Shown here piece by piece: positions 5,682 through 51,626 of a stretch of 64,000 nucleotides of DNA. The DNA is from Winogradskyella aurantia. Lineage in GTDB: Bacteria; Bacteroidota; Bacteroidia; Flavobacteriales; Flavobacteriaceae. The DNA lies in the NCBI RefSeq assembly GCF_002266855.1, contig NZ_NGJN01000008.1, positions 1 to 64,000 on the forward strand, read 5' to 3'. Within the stretch, counting starts at the first letter, position 1, and every line of letters begins with the position of its first letter. The notes beneath the pieces were generated by a model. That model worked only from the letters and a program-made list of their open reading frames with translations. It had not been told where the DNA came from and made no database searches. The translations under genes and the position numbers were made by a program.

Positions 5682-5918
5682 GTGAAAAAACTGCTTATAT
5701 ATCCTTTTCTATTTTTAATAAAAGTCTATCAAACTCTTATTTCCCCTCTTTTTCCCGCGACATGCAGGTACCAACCCACATGTTCCCATTACGCTAAGGA
5801 GGCATTAGAAGTCCATGGCATCTTAAAAGGTGGCAAATTAGCTTTAAAACGGGTTTTTAGTTGTCATCCCTGGGGAGGCAAGGGTTTTGATCCAGTTCCC
5901 GAAAAGGATGACAACTAA
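5682..5918 (+). CDS. yidD: Membrane protein insertion efficiency factor YidD
   Basis: Small membrane-associated protein that helps the YidC insertase. 78 residues with the family hallmarks: an N-terminal hydrophobic helix ([20 protein letters not shown]), the cysteine motif [15 protein letters not shown] and the C-terminal [12 protein letters not shown]. The start is GTG, 2 bp after the cysS stop; no ATG lies upstream before the conserved helix. The last 51 bases of the gene form the first part of a 123-bp sequence repeated twice more just downstream. Confidence 0.93.
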
Positions 5919-6230
5919 AAATTTTCCCTTAGCGCCACCTCGCCCGTTCGCTAGATATGTACACCGTACATTTCGTTTTTCGCTCCGTCGCCCTGGGGAG
6001 GAAAGGGTTTTGATCCAGTTCCCGGAAAGGATGACAACTAAAAAGTTTCCCTTAGCGCCATCTCGCCCGTTCGCTAGAAATGTACACCGTACATTTCGTT
6101 TTTCGCTCCGTCGCCCTAGGGAGGAAAGGGCTTTGATCCAGTTCCTAAAAAGGATGACAACTAAAAAGTTTCCCTTAGCGCCATCTCGCCCGTTCGCCAG
6201 AAATATATACCGACATTTTATTTACAATTC
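5868..6230 (+). repeat. Three tandem 123-bp units made of the yidD 3' end plus its downstream spacer
   Basis: Unit 1 spans 5868-5990 and begins at the proline codon of [10 protein letters not shown] inside yidD. Unit 2 is 5991-6113 and unit 3 is 6114 to about 6230, with a diverged end. The period is exactly 123 bp (41 codons), so the yidD frame is kept: unit 2 would encode [16 protein letters not shown] and a stop, while unit 3 has an immediate TAG. Each unit also carries a spacer with the palindrome around ATGTAC-ACC-GTACAT. In unit 2 the arms are nine perfect pairs (6077-6085 with 6089-6097). Units 1 and 2 are nearly identical, so the amplification looks recent. Confidence 0.93.
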
Positions 6231-6346
6231 GTGAGTCTGAGAAGTAAAAAGATTTTGCCCTACACTACTAAAAGGCCATTAATATTCCGTTAATCACGGT
6301 TTCAAAACCCTACAAAATAGTATATTTACCGCATAAATATGCAACT

Positions 6347-35675: not shown

Positions 35676-36608
35676 CTAAGACCTTGGCAAAAATACCTCT
35701 GCCATCATGCAGCGTGCACTACCACCTCCACAGGTTTCAATGGTATCAAGTGAGCTATATATAACGGGGCAATGCTTTTCAATTTTAGTTATTTGCCCTT
35801 TATCTAAGCTCTTATAAGCCGATTCGCTCATAATAAGATATCGTTGTTGATCATCGCCTTGTAACTGAAGCATATTTCCAGCAAAATTTTGCATTTGGGC
35901 TTCAGAAATAGAAATAATTTCTTTCCCATCTCTCTTAAGATGTCCTACAACATTTTTTCGTTCCTTTTTATCATCAATGGCATCCAAACAAATAATCGCA
36001 AAGTTTTCAGCGATACACATCATTACATTTGTATGGTATATGGGCAAACGCTTACCGTCCGTAGTCTGATTGGCCCTAAAAATAACGGGTGTATATTCAA
36101 AATCCTCACAGAACTCAATGAACAAGTCTTCATCAGCTCTTGGAGATAGAGCACAATACGCTTTTCTATTTACTCGATCCAAAATCATACTTCCGGTCCC
36201 CTCTAAAAAAACACCCATGTTTTCGGCAGAGGTATAGTCGATAATATGCTCTATTATAAACCCTTCCTTTTCCAGTCTTATAAATACTTCGTCCCTACGC
36301 TCTTTTCTGCGATTTTCAGCAAACATAGGATATATGGCTACATCACCATTACTATGAAAACTTACCCAATTATTAGGAAAAATAGAGTCTGGCGTGTCCA
36401 TTAGCTTATCATCTTGCTCAACTATGACTTTAATTCCAACCGCTTTTAGTTTGTCCACAAAATCATCAAACTCCTTTTGAGCTTTAGCATTTATTTCAGC
36501 GTTTTTTAAGTCTAAATCTTCTTGAAAATAATTATTTACGGCCGTTTGCTCATTCATCCTGAAATTAATAGGACGAATCATTAAAATAGTATCTGTAGTT
36601 TGCTGCAT
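35676..36608 (-). CDS. ctlX: Citrulline utilization hydrolase CtlX (arginine deiminase-related)
   Basis: Guanidino-group-modifying-enzyme fold (GME/DDAH superfamily), 310 residues. Substrate-binding and catalytic residues are visible: DTPDSIFPNNWVSFHSNG (about 66), LEGTGSMILDR (about 135), the histidine in YHTNVMMCIAE and the C-terminal nucleophile cysteine in CGGGSARCMMAEVFLP. I know this family as CtlX, named for citrulline use in proteobacteria; the reaction in flavobacteria is not settled. A paralogue of the same fold lies at 50701-51612. In several flavobacteria the two genes are close together, as far as I recall; here 14 kb separates them. Confidence 0.8.
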   Translation of the reverse strand: MQQTTDTILMIRPINFRMNEQTAVNNYFQEDLDLKNAEINAKAQKEFDDFVDKLKAVGIKVIVEQDDKLMDTPDSIFPNNWVSFHSNGDVAIYPMFAENRRKERRDEVFIRLEKEGFIIEHIIDYTSAENMGVFLEGTGSMILDRVNRKAYCALSPRADEDLFIEFCEDFEYTPVIFRANQTTDGKRLPIYHTNVMMCIAENFAIICLDAIDDKKERKNVVGHLKRDGKEIISISEAQMQNFAGNMLQLQGDDQQRYLIMSESAYKSLDKGQITKIEKHCPVIYSSLDTIETCGGGSARCMMAEVFLPRS

Positions 36609-45982: not shown

Positions 45983-46012
45983 GAAATCACCAATTTTATT
46001 GGTGATTTCAAA
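45983..46012. terminator. Bidirectional terminator after the ACBP gene
   Basis: A perfect 12-bp stem, GAAATCACCAAT / ATTGGTGATTTC, with a 3-nt loop, between the convergent ACBP and 46050-46739 genes; A-run before and A/T run after. Confidence 0.85.
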
Positions 46013-46049: not shown

Positions 46050-46739
46050 CTAGGCTTCAGACTTTGGTAGATTTATGCCTTGCTTTAACACAACAGCGCC
46101 CATAGCAATCAACCAAATGACTTTGATATGAAATAATGGTTTGTATATTTCAAAATTATCTGGGATAGCTAAGATGATACCCATCGCAGCAAGACCTAAA
46201 AGAGCAGTAAACCAACCCAACCATTTACTCACCATATGCCATTTAATTAAAGCATAGCCCAATAAGACCAAACCAACACCAGAAAAGATACGGCCAAACC
46301 TTATAAAACAGGTCACATACTGATTTGTGAACAATATGTCATGCATAAAAGCCTCTATTTCAACGGGCGTTTTCCCTGCAGTTTCTCCAACGCCCCAAGC
46401 TCCGAAATTATAGAAATATGCGTTTGCTATGGCCAAGGTAAACGTGCCAATGATTACCATACCTGCACCTGGCAAAATTACGACCCTATAAGGTCTTCGA
46501 GCTGTTACAGATACAAGAGCAAATAAAGCAATACCCATAGTCACCCAGCCAAAAATATGTATGCGATACATCCAAATCCAGGTCCATACATTTTCTCCAA
46601 TCGCTTCAAAATCCGATGCCACGATGTATTCACCTATATGATGTGGGGATAAGGCCCAACCCAGCCATAATAATAATGCTGCCAAAATAAAGGCCCATCC
46701 TGTAAACTTTGTTTCGAAGTCTTTTTGTAAACTGTTCAT
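46050..46739 (-). CDS. Six-helix membrane protein of unknown function
   Basis: 229 residues with about six membrane helices (FILAALLLWLGWAL, IFGWVTMGIALFALVSV, GMVIIGTFTLAIANAYF, FSGVGLVLLGYALI, WFTALLGLAAMGIIL, VIWLIAMGAVVL). Conserved-looking polar positions are SPHHIGEY (about 31), MYRIHIFGW (about 57) and LFHIKVIW. I do not recognise the family. The histidines inside or next to helices could bind haem, but this is only a possibility. It diverges from the sulfite-dehydrogenase operon and has its own copy of the TGTAAC-N4-GTTACA operator 53 bp before its ATG, so joint regulation is likely. Confidence 0.75.
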   Translation of the reverse strand: MNSLQKDFETKFTGWAFILAALLLWLGWALSPHHIGEYIVASDFEAIGENVWTWIWMYRIHIFGWVTMGIALFALVSVTARRPYRVVILPGAGMVIIGTFTLAIANAYFYNFGAWGVGETAGKTPVEIEAFMHDILFTNQYVTCFIRFGRIFSGVGLVLLGYALIKWHMVSKWLGWFTALLGLAAMGIILAIPDNFEIYKPLFHIKVIWLIAMGAVVLKQGINLPKSEA

Positions 46740-46792
46740 GTTTATATTATTTAATAGATACTAACAATGTAGTAGTATCTATTTTTTTCTTA

Positions 46793-46808
46793 TGTAACAT
46801 ATGTTACA
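46793..46808. promoter_or_regulatory. Palindromic operator, copy 1 (TGTAACATATGTTACA)
   Basis: A perfect 16-bp palindrome, 53 bp upstream of the membrane protein ATG at 46739. The half-site TGTAAC with a 4-bp spacer is the shape of a dimeric helix-turn-helix site of the Crp/Fnr kind; regulator identity is inferred. Confidence 0.7.
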
Positions 46809-46837
46809 CGACTTCATGCCACGTAGCGTTTAAACTG

Positions 46838-47026
46838 TTCAATTATATAGGTAACTACTTACTAATTCCAATACACAAAAATGAATTATCTATTTTAATT
46901 CTATTCAAAAACCCACTTATATGGGCCTTACAAGATAATATTAGTATTTCATATCATTTAAAATATAGTAATGGAGTTGATCATTATGGAGTACTAACTA
47001 AAATACCGTTAAAAGGCCTATTTTAA
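46838..47026 (+). other. Open stretch without start codon, possible gene remnant
   Basis: In frame with the TAA at 47024, the sequence ends NISISYHLKYSNGVDHYGVL followed by TKIPLKGLF, which looks like the last beta-strand of an outer-membrane barrel (final Phe). There is no ATG upstream in frame before the operator at 46808, so this may be the fossil C-terminus of a lost gene. Confidence 0.25.
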
Positions 47027-47086
47027 ATTCTATTACCTGTAAAATGAATACAAACCTATAACCTTCCAATTGATATTAAACCGATG

Positions 47087-47102
47087 TGTAACATTGGTTA
47101 CA
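47087..47102. promoter_or_regulatory. Palindromic operator, copy 2 (TGTAACATTGGTTACA)
   Basis: Same half-sites and spacing as copy 1 (TGTAAC-N4-GTTACA), 62 bp upstream of the molybdoenzyme start codon at 47165. Confidence 0.7.
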
Positions 47103-47164
47103 AAGACATATTTGAAAAAAATGTATCTTAATTAATTATTTAGGTAGCTTATAAATTCAATATT

Positions 47165-48385
47165 TTGAAAAGAAGAGATTTCGTTAAAAAAGGGACGCTT
47201 AGTTCTATTGCAGCGCTCATAGGAACAGAGGTGGTTTTTGGCTCTAATATGCTAAAAGGTTACACACCGTTAGCTTTACAAGATCCAGATCCTTTCAAAC
47301 TCTTTAATAAGCACAAGGATATGGTTGTCCTTAATGATAAGCCGTGGAATATCGAATCTCAGGCACACCTATTGGACGATAATATTACACCTAATGCCTC
47401 CATGTTTATCAGAAATAATGGTTTGGTTCCAGAGGATATAGATGCTAAAAACTGGACATTGACAATTGATGGCGAATCGGTAAAAAACAAAAAGACTTAT
47501 ACGCTACAAGAGTTAAAGTCTAAATTCGAGCAACACACATATCAATTAACTATAGAATGTGGTGGCAACGGTCGTGCAGAATTTAACCCACCCGCTAAAG
47601 GCAACCAATGGACTGTTGGTGCTGTACACTGCGCTTCATGGACTGGCGTTCGTTTGCGCGATGTTTTACAGGATGCAGGCATTAGAAATAATGCTGTTTA
47701 TATTGGATTTCATGCAGTAGATAAACATCTCAGTTTAGACCCTAATAAAGAACCAATTTCCAGAGGTTGTCCTATGTCTAAGGCATTACAGGATGAAACC
47801 CTTTTGGCTTTCAAAATGAATGGAAAGGACATTCCTCTTATCCATGGCTACCCCTTGCGCCTCGTGGCCGGAGGTTGGCCAGCTTCGGTATCTGGTAAAT
47901 GGGTCAACCGAATCAGTATACGCAATAAAGTACACGACGGAACAAAAATGACAGGTACAGCCTATAGAGTACCTTGCGAGCCTGTGGCTCCAGGAGCTAA
48001 GGTCAAGGATGAAGATATGTGCATTATAGAATCTATGCCTGTAAAGTCATTGATAACATATCCTAAATCTGGAGCAATAATCAAAAAAGGTAAATCCTTA
48101 AATATAAGAGGGCATGCTTGGGCAGGAGAACTAGAGGTAACTAAAGTAGAGTATTCTATAGATTTTGGTTCAACTTGGAAGGATTGTAAGCTAGAAGCAC
48201 CTGCAAATAGATTAGCATGGCAACATTTTTCAGCTTCTGTTGATTTACCAAAGTTGGGTTATTATGAAGTTTGGGCAAGAGCCACGGATACAAAAGGAAA
48301 TGCGCAACCAATGGTATTACCAGGTTGGAATCCGAAAGGGTATTTGAATAACGCTTGTCATCGTATAGCGGTTAAGGTAAGTTAA
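47165..48385 (+). CDS. Tat-exported molybdopterin sulfite dehydrogenase (SorA-like)
   Basis: 406 residues beginning with TTG at 47165. The next ATG in frame is 28 codons on and would remove the twin-arginine signal MKRRDFVKKGTLSSIAAL. The Mo-cofactor cysteine is C132 in TIECGGNGRAEF, matching the ECAGNGR motif of the sulfite oxidase fold. HCASWTGVRLRDVL, RGCPMSKALQDETLLAFKMN and the dimerisation domain (about 285-395, AGELEVTKVEYSIDFG) complete the family. It probably oxidises sulfite to sulfate in the periplasm and passes electrons to the cytochrome encoded next. Nitrate reductase or another substrate is less likely. Confidence 0.85.
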   Translation: MKRRDFVKKGTLSSIAALIGTEVVFGSNMLKGYTPLALQDPDPFKLFNKHKDMVVLNDKPWNIESQAHLLDDNITPNASMFIRNNGLVPEDIDAKNWTLTIDGESVKNKKTYTLQELKSKFEQHTYQLTIECGGNGRAEFNPPAKGNQWTVGAVHCASWTGVRLRDVLQDAGIRNNAVYIGFHAVDKHLSLDPNKEPISRGCPMSKALQDETLLAFKMNGKDIPLIHGYPLRLVAGGWPASVSGKWVNRISIRNKVHDGTKMTGTAYRVPCEPVAPGAKVKDEDMCIIESMPVKSLITYPKSGAIIKKGKSLNIRGHAWAGELEVTKVEYSIDFGSTWKDCKLEAPANRLAWQHFSASVDLPKLGYYEVWARATDTKGNAQPMVLPGWNPKGYLNNACHRIAVKVS

Positions 48386-48855
48386 TGAATAAGGAAAGCA
48401 CATTCAGAAAACAAGTTAGAAGGATATATCACTTATTAATGGTATTATTTGGCTTGTTTGTTGTTACTGGAGGGAGCTTAATTTATTATGTGAATAATCC
48501 AGGTGCTTTCGATTTTAAAGCAAAATCAGAAATAGCCTCTATAACCCCTGTTGAAGATGAAGATCGTATAGAAAATGGTATACATGTGAGGACAGGACTA
48601 ATTGATAGTGAAGGGCTTATGGTAGTTGTTAATAATTGTACCAATTGCCATTCTGCTAAATTAGTCACACAAAACAGAATGACTAAAGAAGGTTGGAATA
48701 CCACTATTAAATGGATGCAAGAGACACAGAACTTATGGGACTTGGGGGGTAATCAAGAAATTATAGTCAATTATTTAGTCACCAACTATCCGCCAAAAGC
48801 AAAGGGAAGACGAATGACTTTAACAGATATTGAATGGTATGAGTTGGAGGATTAA
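48385..48855 (+). CDS. Membrane-anchored monohaem cytochrome c (SorB-like)
   Basis: 156 residues. A single membrane helix (about 14-33, IYHLLMVLFGLFVVTGGSLI) and one haem c motif C85-T-N-C88-H89 in NNCTNCHSAKL. The Met ligand may be in QNRMTKEGW. TAATG overlap with the preceding gene and a 17-bp overlap with the following one show tight coupling. It is the expected electron acceptor of the sulfite dehydrogenase; in SorAB of other bacteria the cytochrome is also monohaem. Confidence 0.85.
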   Translation: MNKESTFRKQVRRIYHLLMVLFGLFVVTGGSLIYYVNNPGAFDFKAKSEIASITPVEDEDRIENGIHVRTGLIDSEGLMVVVNNCTNCHSAKLVTQNRMTKEGWNTTIKWMQETQNLWDLGGNQEIIVNYLVTNYPPKAKGRRMTLTDIEWYELED

Positions 48856-49765
48856 TTTTTTAATTTTAGTTGTACTCTCGTGGGCATGTCAGAAAGAGAA
48901 GCAGGTCGTAATACCTAATCATAATGAAGGTAATTTAATTGAGGCTGCAGAACTAAAAGCTATAATAAACCAACCAAACATAAAATTGTTGGATTTTAGA
49001 AAAAAAGACGAATACGATAAGGGACACATAACTAAAGCTTTGAATATATGGCGAACAGATATAGAGGATAGTTCTTACCCTTATAGAGGAATGATGGCAA
49101 GTAAATCGCAGATTCAAGCTGTTTTTGGTCAATTAGGAATCAATTCTAACGATACTATTATAGTGTATGATGACAACGGCATGTGTGAAGCTGCAAGATT
49201 ATGGTGGGTATTACAAAACTATGACTTTAAAAATGTAAGGATATTAAATGGAGGTATTTCAGCATGGGCGTTAAACAATGGTTCATTGACAACGCAAAAG
49301 GTTAAATTCAAGCCTTCCACTTTTGAGCTATCTGATAATGCTTCTATGGTTTATCATATATCAAAAGCGGAGCTTGAACAGGCTTTAAAATCGGACGTAA
49401 CAGTTATAGATACAAGAACTTTGGATGAATATACCGGTAAGACCCACAAAAATGGAGCAACGAAATCAGGAAGGATTCCAGAAAGTTTACATATTGATTG
49501 GGCCGAAAGTATTAATTACGACGGGGACCAACGATTCAAAACAATAGAAGAAATTAAAAAAAAGTATAGAAAGTTAAACATAAAAAAAACAGATTTGATT
49601 GTTTTATATTGCCATACTGGTGTTCGATCAGCACATAGTACCTTTGTGTTGACTCAAATATTAGGTCATCAAAATGTTAAAAATTATGATGGCTCTTGGG
49701 TAGAATGGAGTTATTTTAACAATTTACCTTTTGAAAATGATCAAGTCTCTCTAATTAAAAAATAA
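48839..49765 (+). CDS. Lipoprotein sulfurtransferase (tandem rhodanese)
   Basis: 308 residues from ATG 48839; a TTG three codons upstream is not needed. Lipobox SWAC at residue 16. Two rhodanese domains: the first (about 35-140) has VYDDNGMCEAARLWW and is probably inactive; the second (about 165-300) has the catalytic C258 in LYCHTGVRSAH. Layout matches thiosulfate or 3-mercaptopyruvate sulfurtransferases, and DTRTLDEYTG and SGRIPESLHI are typical. Lipid-anchored to the outside of the cytoplasmic membrane, it could cleave thiosulfate and give sulfite to the dehydrogenase of this operon. Its start lies inside the cytochrome gene. Confidence 0.85.
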   Translation: MSWRINFLILVVLSWACQKEKQVVIPNHNEGNLIEAAELKAIINQPNIKLLDFRKKDEYDKGHITKALNIWRTDIEDSSYPYRGMMASKSQIQAVFGQLGINSNDTIIVYDDNGMCEAARLWWVLQNYDFKNVRILNGGISAWALNNGSLTTQKVKFKPSTFELSDNASMVYHISKAELEQALKSDVTVIDTRTLDEYTGKTHKNGATKSGRIPESLHIDWAESINYDGDQRFKTIEEIKKKYRKLNIKKTDLIVLYCHTGVRSAHSTFVLTQILGHQNVKNYDGSWVEWSYFNNLPFENDQVSLIKK

Positions 49766-49766
49766 A

Positions 49767-50642
49767 ATGGAAAAGTATTTAGACGCATTCGTAAATGCCT
49801 TTGAAGGCACATTAACATGGACCTGGAAATCAATTATTTTTGAAGTGCCTTGGTATACAAATTACTTTTGGGGCCTTATTGCCATCTCCTTAGTTGTTTG
49901 GTTTTTGGAAATAGCCTTTCCATGGCGAAAAAACCAATCTATTTTTAGACGCGACTTCTGGTTAGATGCATTTTATATGTTTTTTAATTTTTTCATTTTC
50001 GCCATTGTCGTGAGTGGAGTATATGAAGTTTTAGGAGTACTATTTAGTGATATAAACATCACTGCAAAAAGTCTTGCCATTGTGGATATTTCAAATTGGG
50101 CACCTGGACTGCAATTATTTGTTTTCTTTATTGTGCTAGACTTTGTACAATGGTTTACACATGTATTATTACATCGTTATGGCTTCCTTTGGAAATTTCA
50201 TAAAGTACACCACAGTGTTAAGGAAATGGGCTTTGCTGCCCATTTACGATACCACTGGATGGAGAATATTTTATATAAGCCTTTAAAAACCTTTGGGGTT
50301 ATGATACTTGGAGGGTTTGAGCCAGAGCAGGCCTATATTGTTCATTTTATTGCCATTGCTATTGGTCACCTCAACCATTCTAATATTAAAATTACTTGGG
50401 GACCTCTTAAGTATATTTTCAATAATCCGGTTATGCACTTGTACCACCACGCTTACCATTTACCAGAGGGGAAAAATGGCGTTAATTACGGTATAAGCTT
50501 AAGTCTTTGGGACTATCTATTTAAAACTGATTATATCCCTGAAGATAGCGGTACTATAGAAATTGGATTTAAAGGTGATGATAAATTTCCTCATGATTTT
50601 ATTGGCCAAAACACCTACGGGTTTAAAAAAGGTCAACATTAA
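49767..50642 (+). CDS. Sterol desaturase / fatty acid hydroxylase family membrane protein
   Basis: 291 residues with four or more membrane helices. The di-iron histidine clusters are complete: HVLLH (about 131), KFHKVHHS (about 144) and HLYHHAYH (about 227), plus HLNHS. Members of this superfamily hydroxylate or desaturate lipids or cleave ether bonds. It starts 1 bp after the rhodanese stop, so it belongs to the same operon, which is unusual for a sulfur-oxidation locus. Bacterial members do not necessarily act on sterols. Confidence 0.85.
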   Translation: MEKYLDAFVNAFEGTLTWTWKSIIFEVPWYTNYFWGLIAISLVVWFLEIAFPWRKNQSIFRRDFWLDAFYMFFNFFIFAIVVSGVYEVLGVLFSDINITAKSLAIVDISNWAPGLQLFVFFIVLDFVQWFTHVLLHRYGFLWKFHKVHHSVKEMGFAAHLRYHWMENILYKPLKTFGVMILGGFEPEQAYIVHFIAIAIGHLNHSNIKITWGPLKYIFNNPVMHLYHHAYHLPEGKNGVNYGISLSLWDYLFKTDYIPEDSGTIEIGFKGDDKFPHDFIGQNTYGFKKGQH

Positions 50643-50700: not shown

Positions 50701-51612
50701 TTAATCCCTTATTAAGGGCATAGTAGAGCAACGCAGCAAACCCTCTTGTTTTGCAATTTCTGCATAGGGGACTTCCTCCACAATAAATCCATGGGCTCGT
50801 AACCATGAGTTTAGTCTCGTAAAGTTGCGTTCTGAAACAATCACATCTTCTGAAATTGAGAAAATATTACTGTTCATATCGTACATTTCGTCTTTTGTGA
50901 TTTCAAAAATATTATCCGCACCAAAGTAATCAACGAGCCATTGATATTCACTTTCAACTAAAAACCCATTTTTATGAATTATTGCCTTGTCCTTACCGAT
51001 GGGCTGAAAGCAACAATCTAGATGAAGGGCATTCTCCTTTGGATCCGTGTTGGACTTCCTAAGTTGGAAGGCCTTTACTTTTTTATGCGGAAATAAGCCT
51101 TGTATTGCTCTAACCGCTTGAATATTGGTTCGAGCTGTGATGAAATCAGCATAATCCTCTCCAGTATACGTACCTACAAAAATATAATCATTCCAAGGCA
51201 TAACATCACCTCCTTCAACATGGCAATCATCTGGTAAGATAATTCTATTGGATTTGTCCACATGAGTCCAAACATATTCGGTGGCCTCAATTTCACGTTT
51301 GCGATCTGGTAGGATATTGGCAATGATAATCTTATCTTCAATAACAAAAGAAATATCCCTTGCAAAAATCTGGTTATAGTCTTGTATAACTTTAGGGCGA
51401 TAGACTTTAACGTCGTATTTTTTCAAGACCTCAGCAAATGCTGCCATTTCCCTTTTCATATCTTCTTCCTTAGGATAAGTACCTGCTAGAACATGTTGTA
51501 AACTTTTAGGATCGTAACAGGCTTCTGGTTTTGGCACTGGCCCGTTACTCTCAGCGGTTCCCAAAATTACAGCTCTTAGCCTTGAAGTCTCGTTTTGAAT
51601 ATTTAATTTCAT
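50701..51612 (-). CDS. Arginine deiminase-fold enzyme (DDAH-like / amidinotransferase)
   Basis: 303 residues from ATG 51612 (MKLNIQNETSRL); an ATG four codons upstream (51624) is possible. Catalytic residues of the guanidino-group-modifying superfamily: FARDISFVIEDKI (about 88), the His/Glu of DCHVEGGDVMPW (about 125), LHLDCCFQP and the nucleophile C in LLRCSTMPLIRD at the end. Same fold as ctlX at 35676. Deimination of arginine, methylarginine or agmatine is the likely reaction. Confidence 0.82.
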   Translation of the reverse strand: MKLNIQNETSRLRAVILGTAESNGPVPKPEACYDPKSLQHVLAGTYPKEEDMKREMAAFAEVLKKYDVKVYRPKVIQDYNQIFARDISFVIEDKIIIANILPDRKREIEATEYVWTHVDKSNRIILPDDCHVEGGDVMPWNDYIFVGTYTGEDYADFITARTNIQAVRAIQGLFPHKKVKAFQLRKSNTDPKENALHLDCCFQPIGKDKAIIHKNGFLVESEYQWLVDYFGADNIFEITKDEMYDMNSNIFSISEDVIVSERNFTRLNSWLRAHGFIVEEVPYAEIAKQEGLLRCSTMPLIRD

Positions 51613-51626
51613 ATGTATTCTCATAT

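Follow-up and report, generated by a model that had tools for sequence, protein, structure and literature searches.

A five-gene cassette in Winogradskyella aurantia is likely to encode the final step, from sulfite to sulfate, of a sulfide oxidation and detoxification regulon. It lies in a stretch of 64,000 nucleotides (contig NZ_NGJN01000008.1, positions 1 to 64,000; the window) from a 3.2 Mb genome in 19 contigs, and comprises genes for a sulfite-oxidase-family molybdoenzyme (SOR), a cytochrome c (CYT), a rhodanese lipoprotein (RHO), a putative membrane hydroxylase (HYD) and a divergent membrane protein (MEM). This role is proposed because one operator is common to the cassette and to genes for sulfide:quinone oxidoreductase (SQR), persulfide dioxygenase-like proteins (PDO), transporters and Crp-type proteins. 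The palindromic core of the operator, GTAACnnnnGTTAC, and the putative regulon that it marks are new here.

All five genes were found where the original prediction had placed them, with the following features.

46050..46739, minus strand: MEM, divergent multi-helix membrane protein; open reading frame (ORF) with a very weak DUF4386 resemblance
45983..46009, minus strand: terminator-like hairpin and T run 3' of MEM; 12 pairs, 4 of them GC
46793..46808, no strand: operator TGTAACATATGTTACA on the MEM promoter side; perfect match, one of seven core sites in the genome
47087..47102, no strand: operator TGTAACATTGGTTACA, 78 bp upstream of the SOR start codon; motif match
47165..48385, plus strand: SOR, sulfite-oxidase-family molybdoenzyme with a twin-arginine translocation (Tat) signal and a TTG start; PF00174, PF03404
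48385..48855, plus strand: CYT, membrane-anchored monohaem cytochrome c, SorB-like; conserved C85-x2-C88-H89 and M111
48839..49765, plus strand: RHO, lipoprotein with two rhodanese domains, an optional member; PF00581 twice
49767..50642, plus strand: HYD, FA_hydroxylase-family membrane di-iron protein of the HYD1 clade; PF04116, His boxes

The overlaps of 1–17 bp described earlier hold for SOR/CYT (1 bp) and for CYT/RHO (17 bp, provided that RHO starts at the conserved ATG at 48839). They do not extend to the last pair, as HYD starts 1 bp after the RHO stop codon.

The intergenic region between MEM and SOR contains two perfect copies of TGTAACnnnnGTTACA, one per gene. Across 1.42 Mb of related loci, GTAACnnnnGTTAC occurs 86 times, compared with a mean of 1.6 and a maximum of 6 for 59 permuted half-sites. 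Most copies are located 50–75 bp upstream of SOR, MEM, PDO, SQR, YeeE1, TauE, Crp, rhodanese and HYD genes, including HYD genes that stand alone. A good match precedes SOR in 34 of 61 loci, mostly at about −55 to −85, and the operator is equally placed before MEM in L035, L036 and L040. When the first genes of transcription units are considered, a perfect operator was found before PDO (17/19), SQR (10/13), YeeE1 (7/11), MEM (7/11), SOR (28/52) and HYD1 (14/34), some of the HYD1 copies being common to HYD1 and a divergently oriented SQR, YeeE1 or PDO gene. For all other unit-leading genes the count was 18/595, with many of these on a divergent promoter shared with the genes just named.

Seven core sites are present in the genome of the window. 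Two lie in the MEM–SOR region, one before an SQR-TusE-DsrE unit and one before a peroxiredoxin-PDO unit; the remaining three are found before an RND efflux operon, near a small ORF by cytochrome bd genes, and in an apparently unrelated place. The RND efflux operon stands directly behind its site (G000:C11 31955; L159:4594-5907 and downstream), and its homologues, together with the operator, adjoin the SOR cassette in L082.

The same genome has a Crp-type gene at the head of a YeeE-TauE-PDO run, in which a near-consensus site precedes YeeE1. It is most likely that this Crp-type protein switches the regulon genes on via GTAACnnnnGTTAC, and its conserved Cys–Cys pair makes it a possible reactive-sulfur sensor. 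A literature search combining Bacteroidetes, persulfide dioxygenase and Crp/Fnr returned nothing relevant. The Crp-type proteins of the sulfur islands (L094:1594-2226, L259:5363-5998 and others) carry the adjacent-cysteine motif TCAMxLTCC or near variants.

SOR scores above the curated cut-offs for both sulfite oxidase domains (PF00174, 180.5 bits, 2.7e-53; PF03404, 75.5 bits, 5.2e-21), aligns with chicken sulfite oxidase at an E value of 2e-54, and is the sole PF00174 protein in the genome. Its N-terminus, MKRRDFVKKG, is of the twin-arginine type, with R3, R4 and F6 conserved in at least 95% of 61 homologues. The residues C132, R83, R137, W149 and Y267 are invariant in this set and align with the chicken enzyme, where we take the counterparts, by number and role, to be Cys185 (the Mo ligand, matching C132), Arg138, Arg190, Trp204 and Tyr322. 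The position matching chicken Arg450 is instead a lysine (Lys391) in 60 of the 61 homologues, leaving five of the six catalytic residues checked conserved. SOR scores highly with the SorA (NF052245; 243 bits, cut-off 600), SorT (204 bits, cut-off 570) and SoxC (TIGR04555; 177 bits, cut-off 420) profiles yet stays under their cut-offs, and its score with MsrP is far lower (NF003767; 37.6 bits, 1.6e-9, cut-off 207). Since the domains and active site of sulfite oxidase are kept while the SorA, SorT and SoxC cut-offs are missed, SOR is assigned by sequence to a distinct SorAB-like clade. No sox genes were recognised in the neighbourhoods read, although sox models were not run systematically.

The adjacent CYT has a single CxxCH motif (C85-x2-C88-H89) and a conserved Met111. 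It matches the SorB profile weakly (NF052246; 27 bits, cut-off 93) and gave chance matches alone in a Protein Data Bank (PDB) search. Like SorAB (PDB 2blf), the pair would combine a periplasmic sulfite-oxidase-family subunit with the product of an adjacent monohaem cytochrome c gene, and lacks a haem b5 domain. It differs from SorAB in its distance from both subunit profiles (243 of 600 bits for SorA, 27 of 93 for SorB), in the membrane anchor of the cytochrome, in the lysine that replaces Arg450 (chicken numbering) and in its linkage to a hydroxylase and a rhodanese. SorT (PDB 4pw3) belongs to the same fold family and also oxidizes sulfite in the periplasm; SOR reaches 204 of the 570 bits of its profile, and the cassette almost always has an adjacent cytochrome gene. 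The SOR–CYT pair is best described, from its sequences, as a new clade within a known kind of system.

Numbered by its 311-residue ORF, RHO has a lipobox cysteine (C20) and a C-terminal active loop, C261-H262-T-G264. MEM itself showed no significant family match and stays under the PF14329 cut-off. DUF4386 (PF14329) is matched weakly by 13 of 36 MEM homologues (best 3.3e-6) and is a family without known function. The AlphaFold model of MEM has a pLDDT of 90. No significant match was found in the PDB, and Foldseek gave cytochrome-b-like matches that were all insignificant (best E 0.09); haem binding by MEM is not claimed on this basis.

Two sets of neighbourhoods were used to follow the cassette, 60 SOR loci read among Flavobacteriaceae and a separate set of 72 loci from GTDB genomes. 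In the first, CYT adjoins SOR in all 60 loci, HYD follows in 47, RHO is present in 16 and MEM is nearby in 12. The corresponding counts in the GTDB set are 71 (CYT), 65 (HYD), 45 (RHO) and 26 (divergent MEM), from genera including Algibacter, Winogradskyella, Polaribacter, Zobellia, Maribacter and Aquimarina. SOR is encoded in 72 of 250 Flavobacteriaceae genomes, with full-length copies sharing 65–87% identity. Because the flanking genes vary between loci, the cassette travels as a unit. Beyond this family, SOR-CYT-RHO-HYD was seen in one genome of another family (L247), and a HYD-SOR order with overlapping ends in two genomes of a further family (L250 and L253); a search of 395 Bacteroidota genomes for SOR gave 24 matches. 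The association thus recurs in dozens of genomes and is neither confined to the window nor due to chance.

Fisher tests, which take no account of the shared ancestry of the genomes, gave strong co-occurrence values. HYD1 was present in 66/71 SOR-positive and 33/178 SOR-negative genomes (5e-29), all 17 MEM-bearing genomes were SOR-positive (1.4e-10), and an SQOR-like SQR was found in 19/71 SOR-positive compared with 17/178 SOR-negative genomes (p 0.001).

Sulfur genes adjoin 11 of the 60 cassette loci. They encode SQR, YeeE/YedE-type transporters, PDO-type metallo-beta-lactamase/rhodanese proteins, small rhodaneses, TauE or SulP, TusE/DsrE, cytochrome bd and a Crp-type regulator. For PDO the matches were metallo-beta-lactamase/rhodanese structures and ETHE1, and for SQR human SQOR. 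On this evidence, the SQOR-like enzyme would convert sulfide to sulfane sulfur, which the PDO-type proteins would oxidize to sulfite. TauE would export the sulfite from the cytoplasm, and the Tat-exported SOR would oxidize it to sulfate in the periplasm, with electrons passing through CYT to the respiratory chain. Where present, RHO may add or remove sulfane sulfur, for example from thiosulfate. The original prediction had suggested that RHO could release sulfite from thiosulfate for SOR. That RHO is the main source of sulfite is less likely, given that it is optional (16 of 60 loci) and that the PDO-like dioxygenases of the regulon can supply sulfite. Its proposal of periplasmic sulfite oxidation, by comparison, is supported by the family, the active-site residues, the cytochrome partner, the SQR/PDO islands and the common operator.

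Oxidation of sulfide by SQR and persulfide dioxygenase in heterotrophs (PMC6245092) is similar in that SQR, PDO with a rhodanese and a TauE-type exporter belong to one sulfur regulon. It differs in that here a molybdoenzyme is predicted to carry on to sulfate, and in the operator GTAACnnnnGTTAC, the Crp-type candidate and the membrane hydroxylase. The cst operon of Staphylococcus is a further example of SQR/persulfide dioxygenase sulfide oxidation.

HYD matches PF04116 with 88.4 bits (cut-off 31; 7e-25), and its boxes HxxxH, HxxHH and HxxHH (H132/H136, H145/H148/H149 and H224/H227/H228) are invariant in 34 homologues. OlsE (NF052566) belongs to the same superfamily and aligns over the C-terminal 180 residues at 88.5 bits, far under its cut-off of 475; the best E value over the 34 homologues was 3.6e-28. 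The two differ in context, which for HYD and its relatives is sulfur oxidation or arsenosugar synthesis. The HYD alignment found no match among PDB sequences. In the tree, HYD1 proteins from SOR cassettes, sulfur islands and other loci intermingle, and are separated from a side that holds HYD2 and the SOR-linked HYD of the other family. All 15 HYD2 loci read (L109–L111 and L140–L151) are arsenosugar operons, with genes for ArsS, TIGR04282-type and other glycosyltransferase-like proteins, a nucleoside phosphorylase and a DUF547-like protein. The sulfur operator precedes HYD2 in two of them (L109 and L110).

In 16 loci HYD1 stands without a linked SOR inside an island of sulfur genes, and HYD most likely belongs to the sulfide oxidation regulon in its own right. 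Of its possible activities we prefer, tentatively and at rather low confidence, the hydroxylation of a membrane lipid or quinone under sulfur stress to the release of sulfite; such a modification would form part of the response to sulfur. The neighbour of HYD1 is also the same dehydrogenase E1-like gene whether or not SOR-CYT lies between the two (L102, L116, L118, L123, L124, L126, L127, L129 and L130 versus L078, L080 and L084), which shows that the SOR–CYT pair has been gained or lost at one site.

Several observations weigh against this interpretation of the cassette and its regulon. SOR is under the curated cut-offs of the three sulfite dehydrogenase-type profiles named above (SorA, SorT and SoxC), and a good operator before SOR is missing from 27 of 61 loci. 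An operator search of the window alone with two mismatches was barely over chance (7 versus 3.25), and over the whole genome the core motif was counted less often than the reversed control. The operator evidence is accordingly that of position and comparative enrichment, since neither count clearly exceeds chance. The Crp–operator pairing, most likely as it is, comes from gene position. A Foldseek search with the HYD model returned nothing meaningful, and sulfur genes are absent from the surroundings of about half of the unlinked HYD1 loci, so that the function of HYD1 would not depend strictly on SOR. The neglect of ancestry in the co-occurrence tests counts on the same side.

Other roles were considered for HYD. 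Its substrates might be small sulfur compounds, methylated or organic, such as methanethiol-type products of a TPMT-like methyltransferase. A TPMT-like gene stands beside HYD in five loci (L039, L093, L100, L101 and L119), and methyltransferase-type genes also occur in the HYD2 arsenosugar operons. TPMT is nevertheless found in few loci and the best-known substrates of the hydroxylase family are lipids and sterols, which makes this role unlikely. It is also rather improbable that shared insertion sites, and not function, hold HYD near SOR. That HYD1 keeps its place at one E1-dehydrogenase locus whether SOR-CYT is there or not would fit such hitch-hiking, but lone HYD genes have their own copies of the sulfur operator, the order is different in another family, where HYD and SOR overlap at their ends, and genome-level co-occurrence of HYD1 and SOR is strong.

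The original prediction had suggested that HYD feeds sulfite into the chain by oxidizing a sulfonated membrane lipid, the cluster as a whole then being one for lipid-sulfonate degradation. The soluble enzymes TauD and SsuD free sulfite by hydroxylation beside the sulfonate, and HYD adjoins SOR in most loci. In addition, sulfonolipids are made by Bacteroidota (PMC9304779). The proposal found no support, and we regard it as very unlikely: there are SQR/PDO islands that have HYD1 with an operator of its own but no SOR, PDO already accounts for a source of sulfite, and the sister HYD2 clade lies in arsenosugar operons. Finally, the MsrP match (1.6e-9) and the peroxiredoxin of the regulon could suggest that SOR reduces oxidized methionine or another oxyanion as in MsrP/YedY, within a periplasmic oxidative-stress repair unit, but the scores (SorA 243 bits, MsrP 38), the dimerisation domain PF03404, the invariant catalytic Tyr and Arg of sulfite oxidase and the sulfide oxidation gene context make this the most improbable of the alternatives.

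For HYD as a regulon member, a wider proposal can be made, at somewhat less than even confidence. HYD1 would be a new clade of membrane di-iron hydroxylases dedicated to sulfide and sulfite oxidation under a Crp-type reactive-sulfur regulator acting via GTAACnnnnGTTAC, with its sister clade in arsenosugar synthesis, both carrying out a new O2-dependent reaction tied to sulfur or arsenic. The description of the cluster as undescribed is reasonable, as the literature search found no paper pairing a sterol desaturase with a sulfite dehydrogenase. Within its coverage, which excluded most subscription journals, the search likewise found no SOR/HYD pairing, operator or Crp-type candidate, and no paper linking arsenosugars to a sterol desaturase.

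Three further observations concern the window outside the cassette. An arginine deiminase/dimethylargininase-like gene (50701-51624) stands beside citrate synthase, in an arrangement also found in L071. The product of 35676-36608 looks like an amidinotransferase-family protein related to that of 50701-51624. An ORF at 5887-6234 consists of near-identical repeats (PLAPxRPFARxVHRTFRFSLRRP) and is probably non-coding intergenic repeat DNA.

Flavobacteriaceae are abundant heterotrophs in coastal seas and sediments. The cassette is widespread in marine Bacteroidota, and most likely completes the disposal of sulfide by oxidizing sulfite, which is toxic, to sulfate. A survey of sediment metagenomes assigned SorA to Myxococcota bins only (PMC12345210), and the Bacteroidota SOR clade may therefore escape current markers. 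The operator offers a simple means to map the sulfide regulon across Flavobacteriaceae. The membrane hydroxylase poses a concrete, testable puzzle in a pathway believed to be complete, and its sister clade in arsenosugar operons would provide a second handle on the chemistry.

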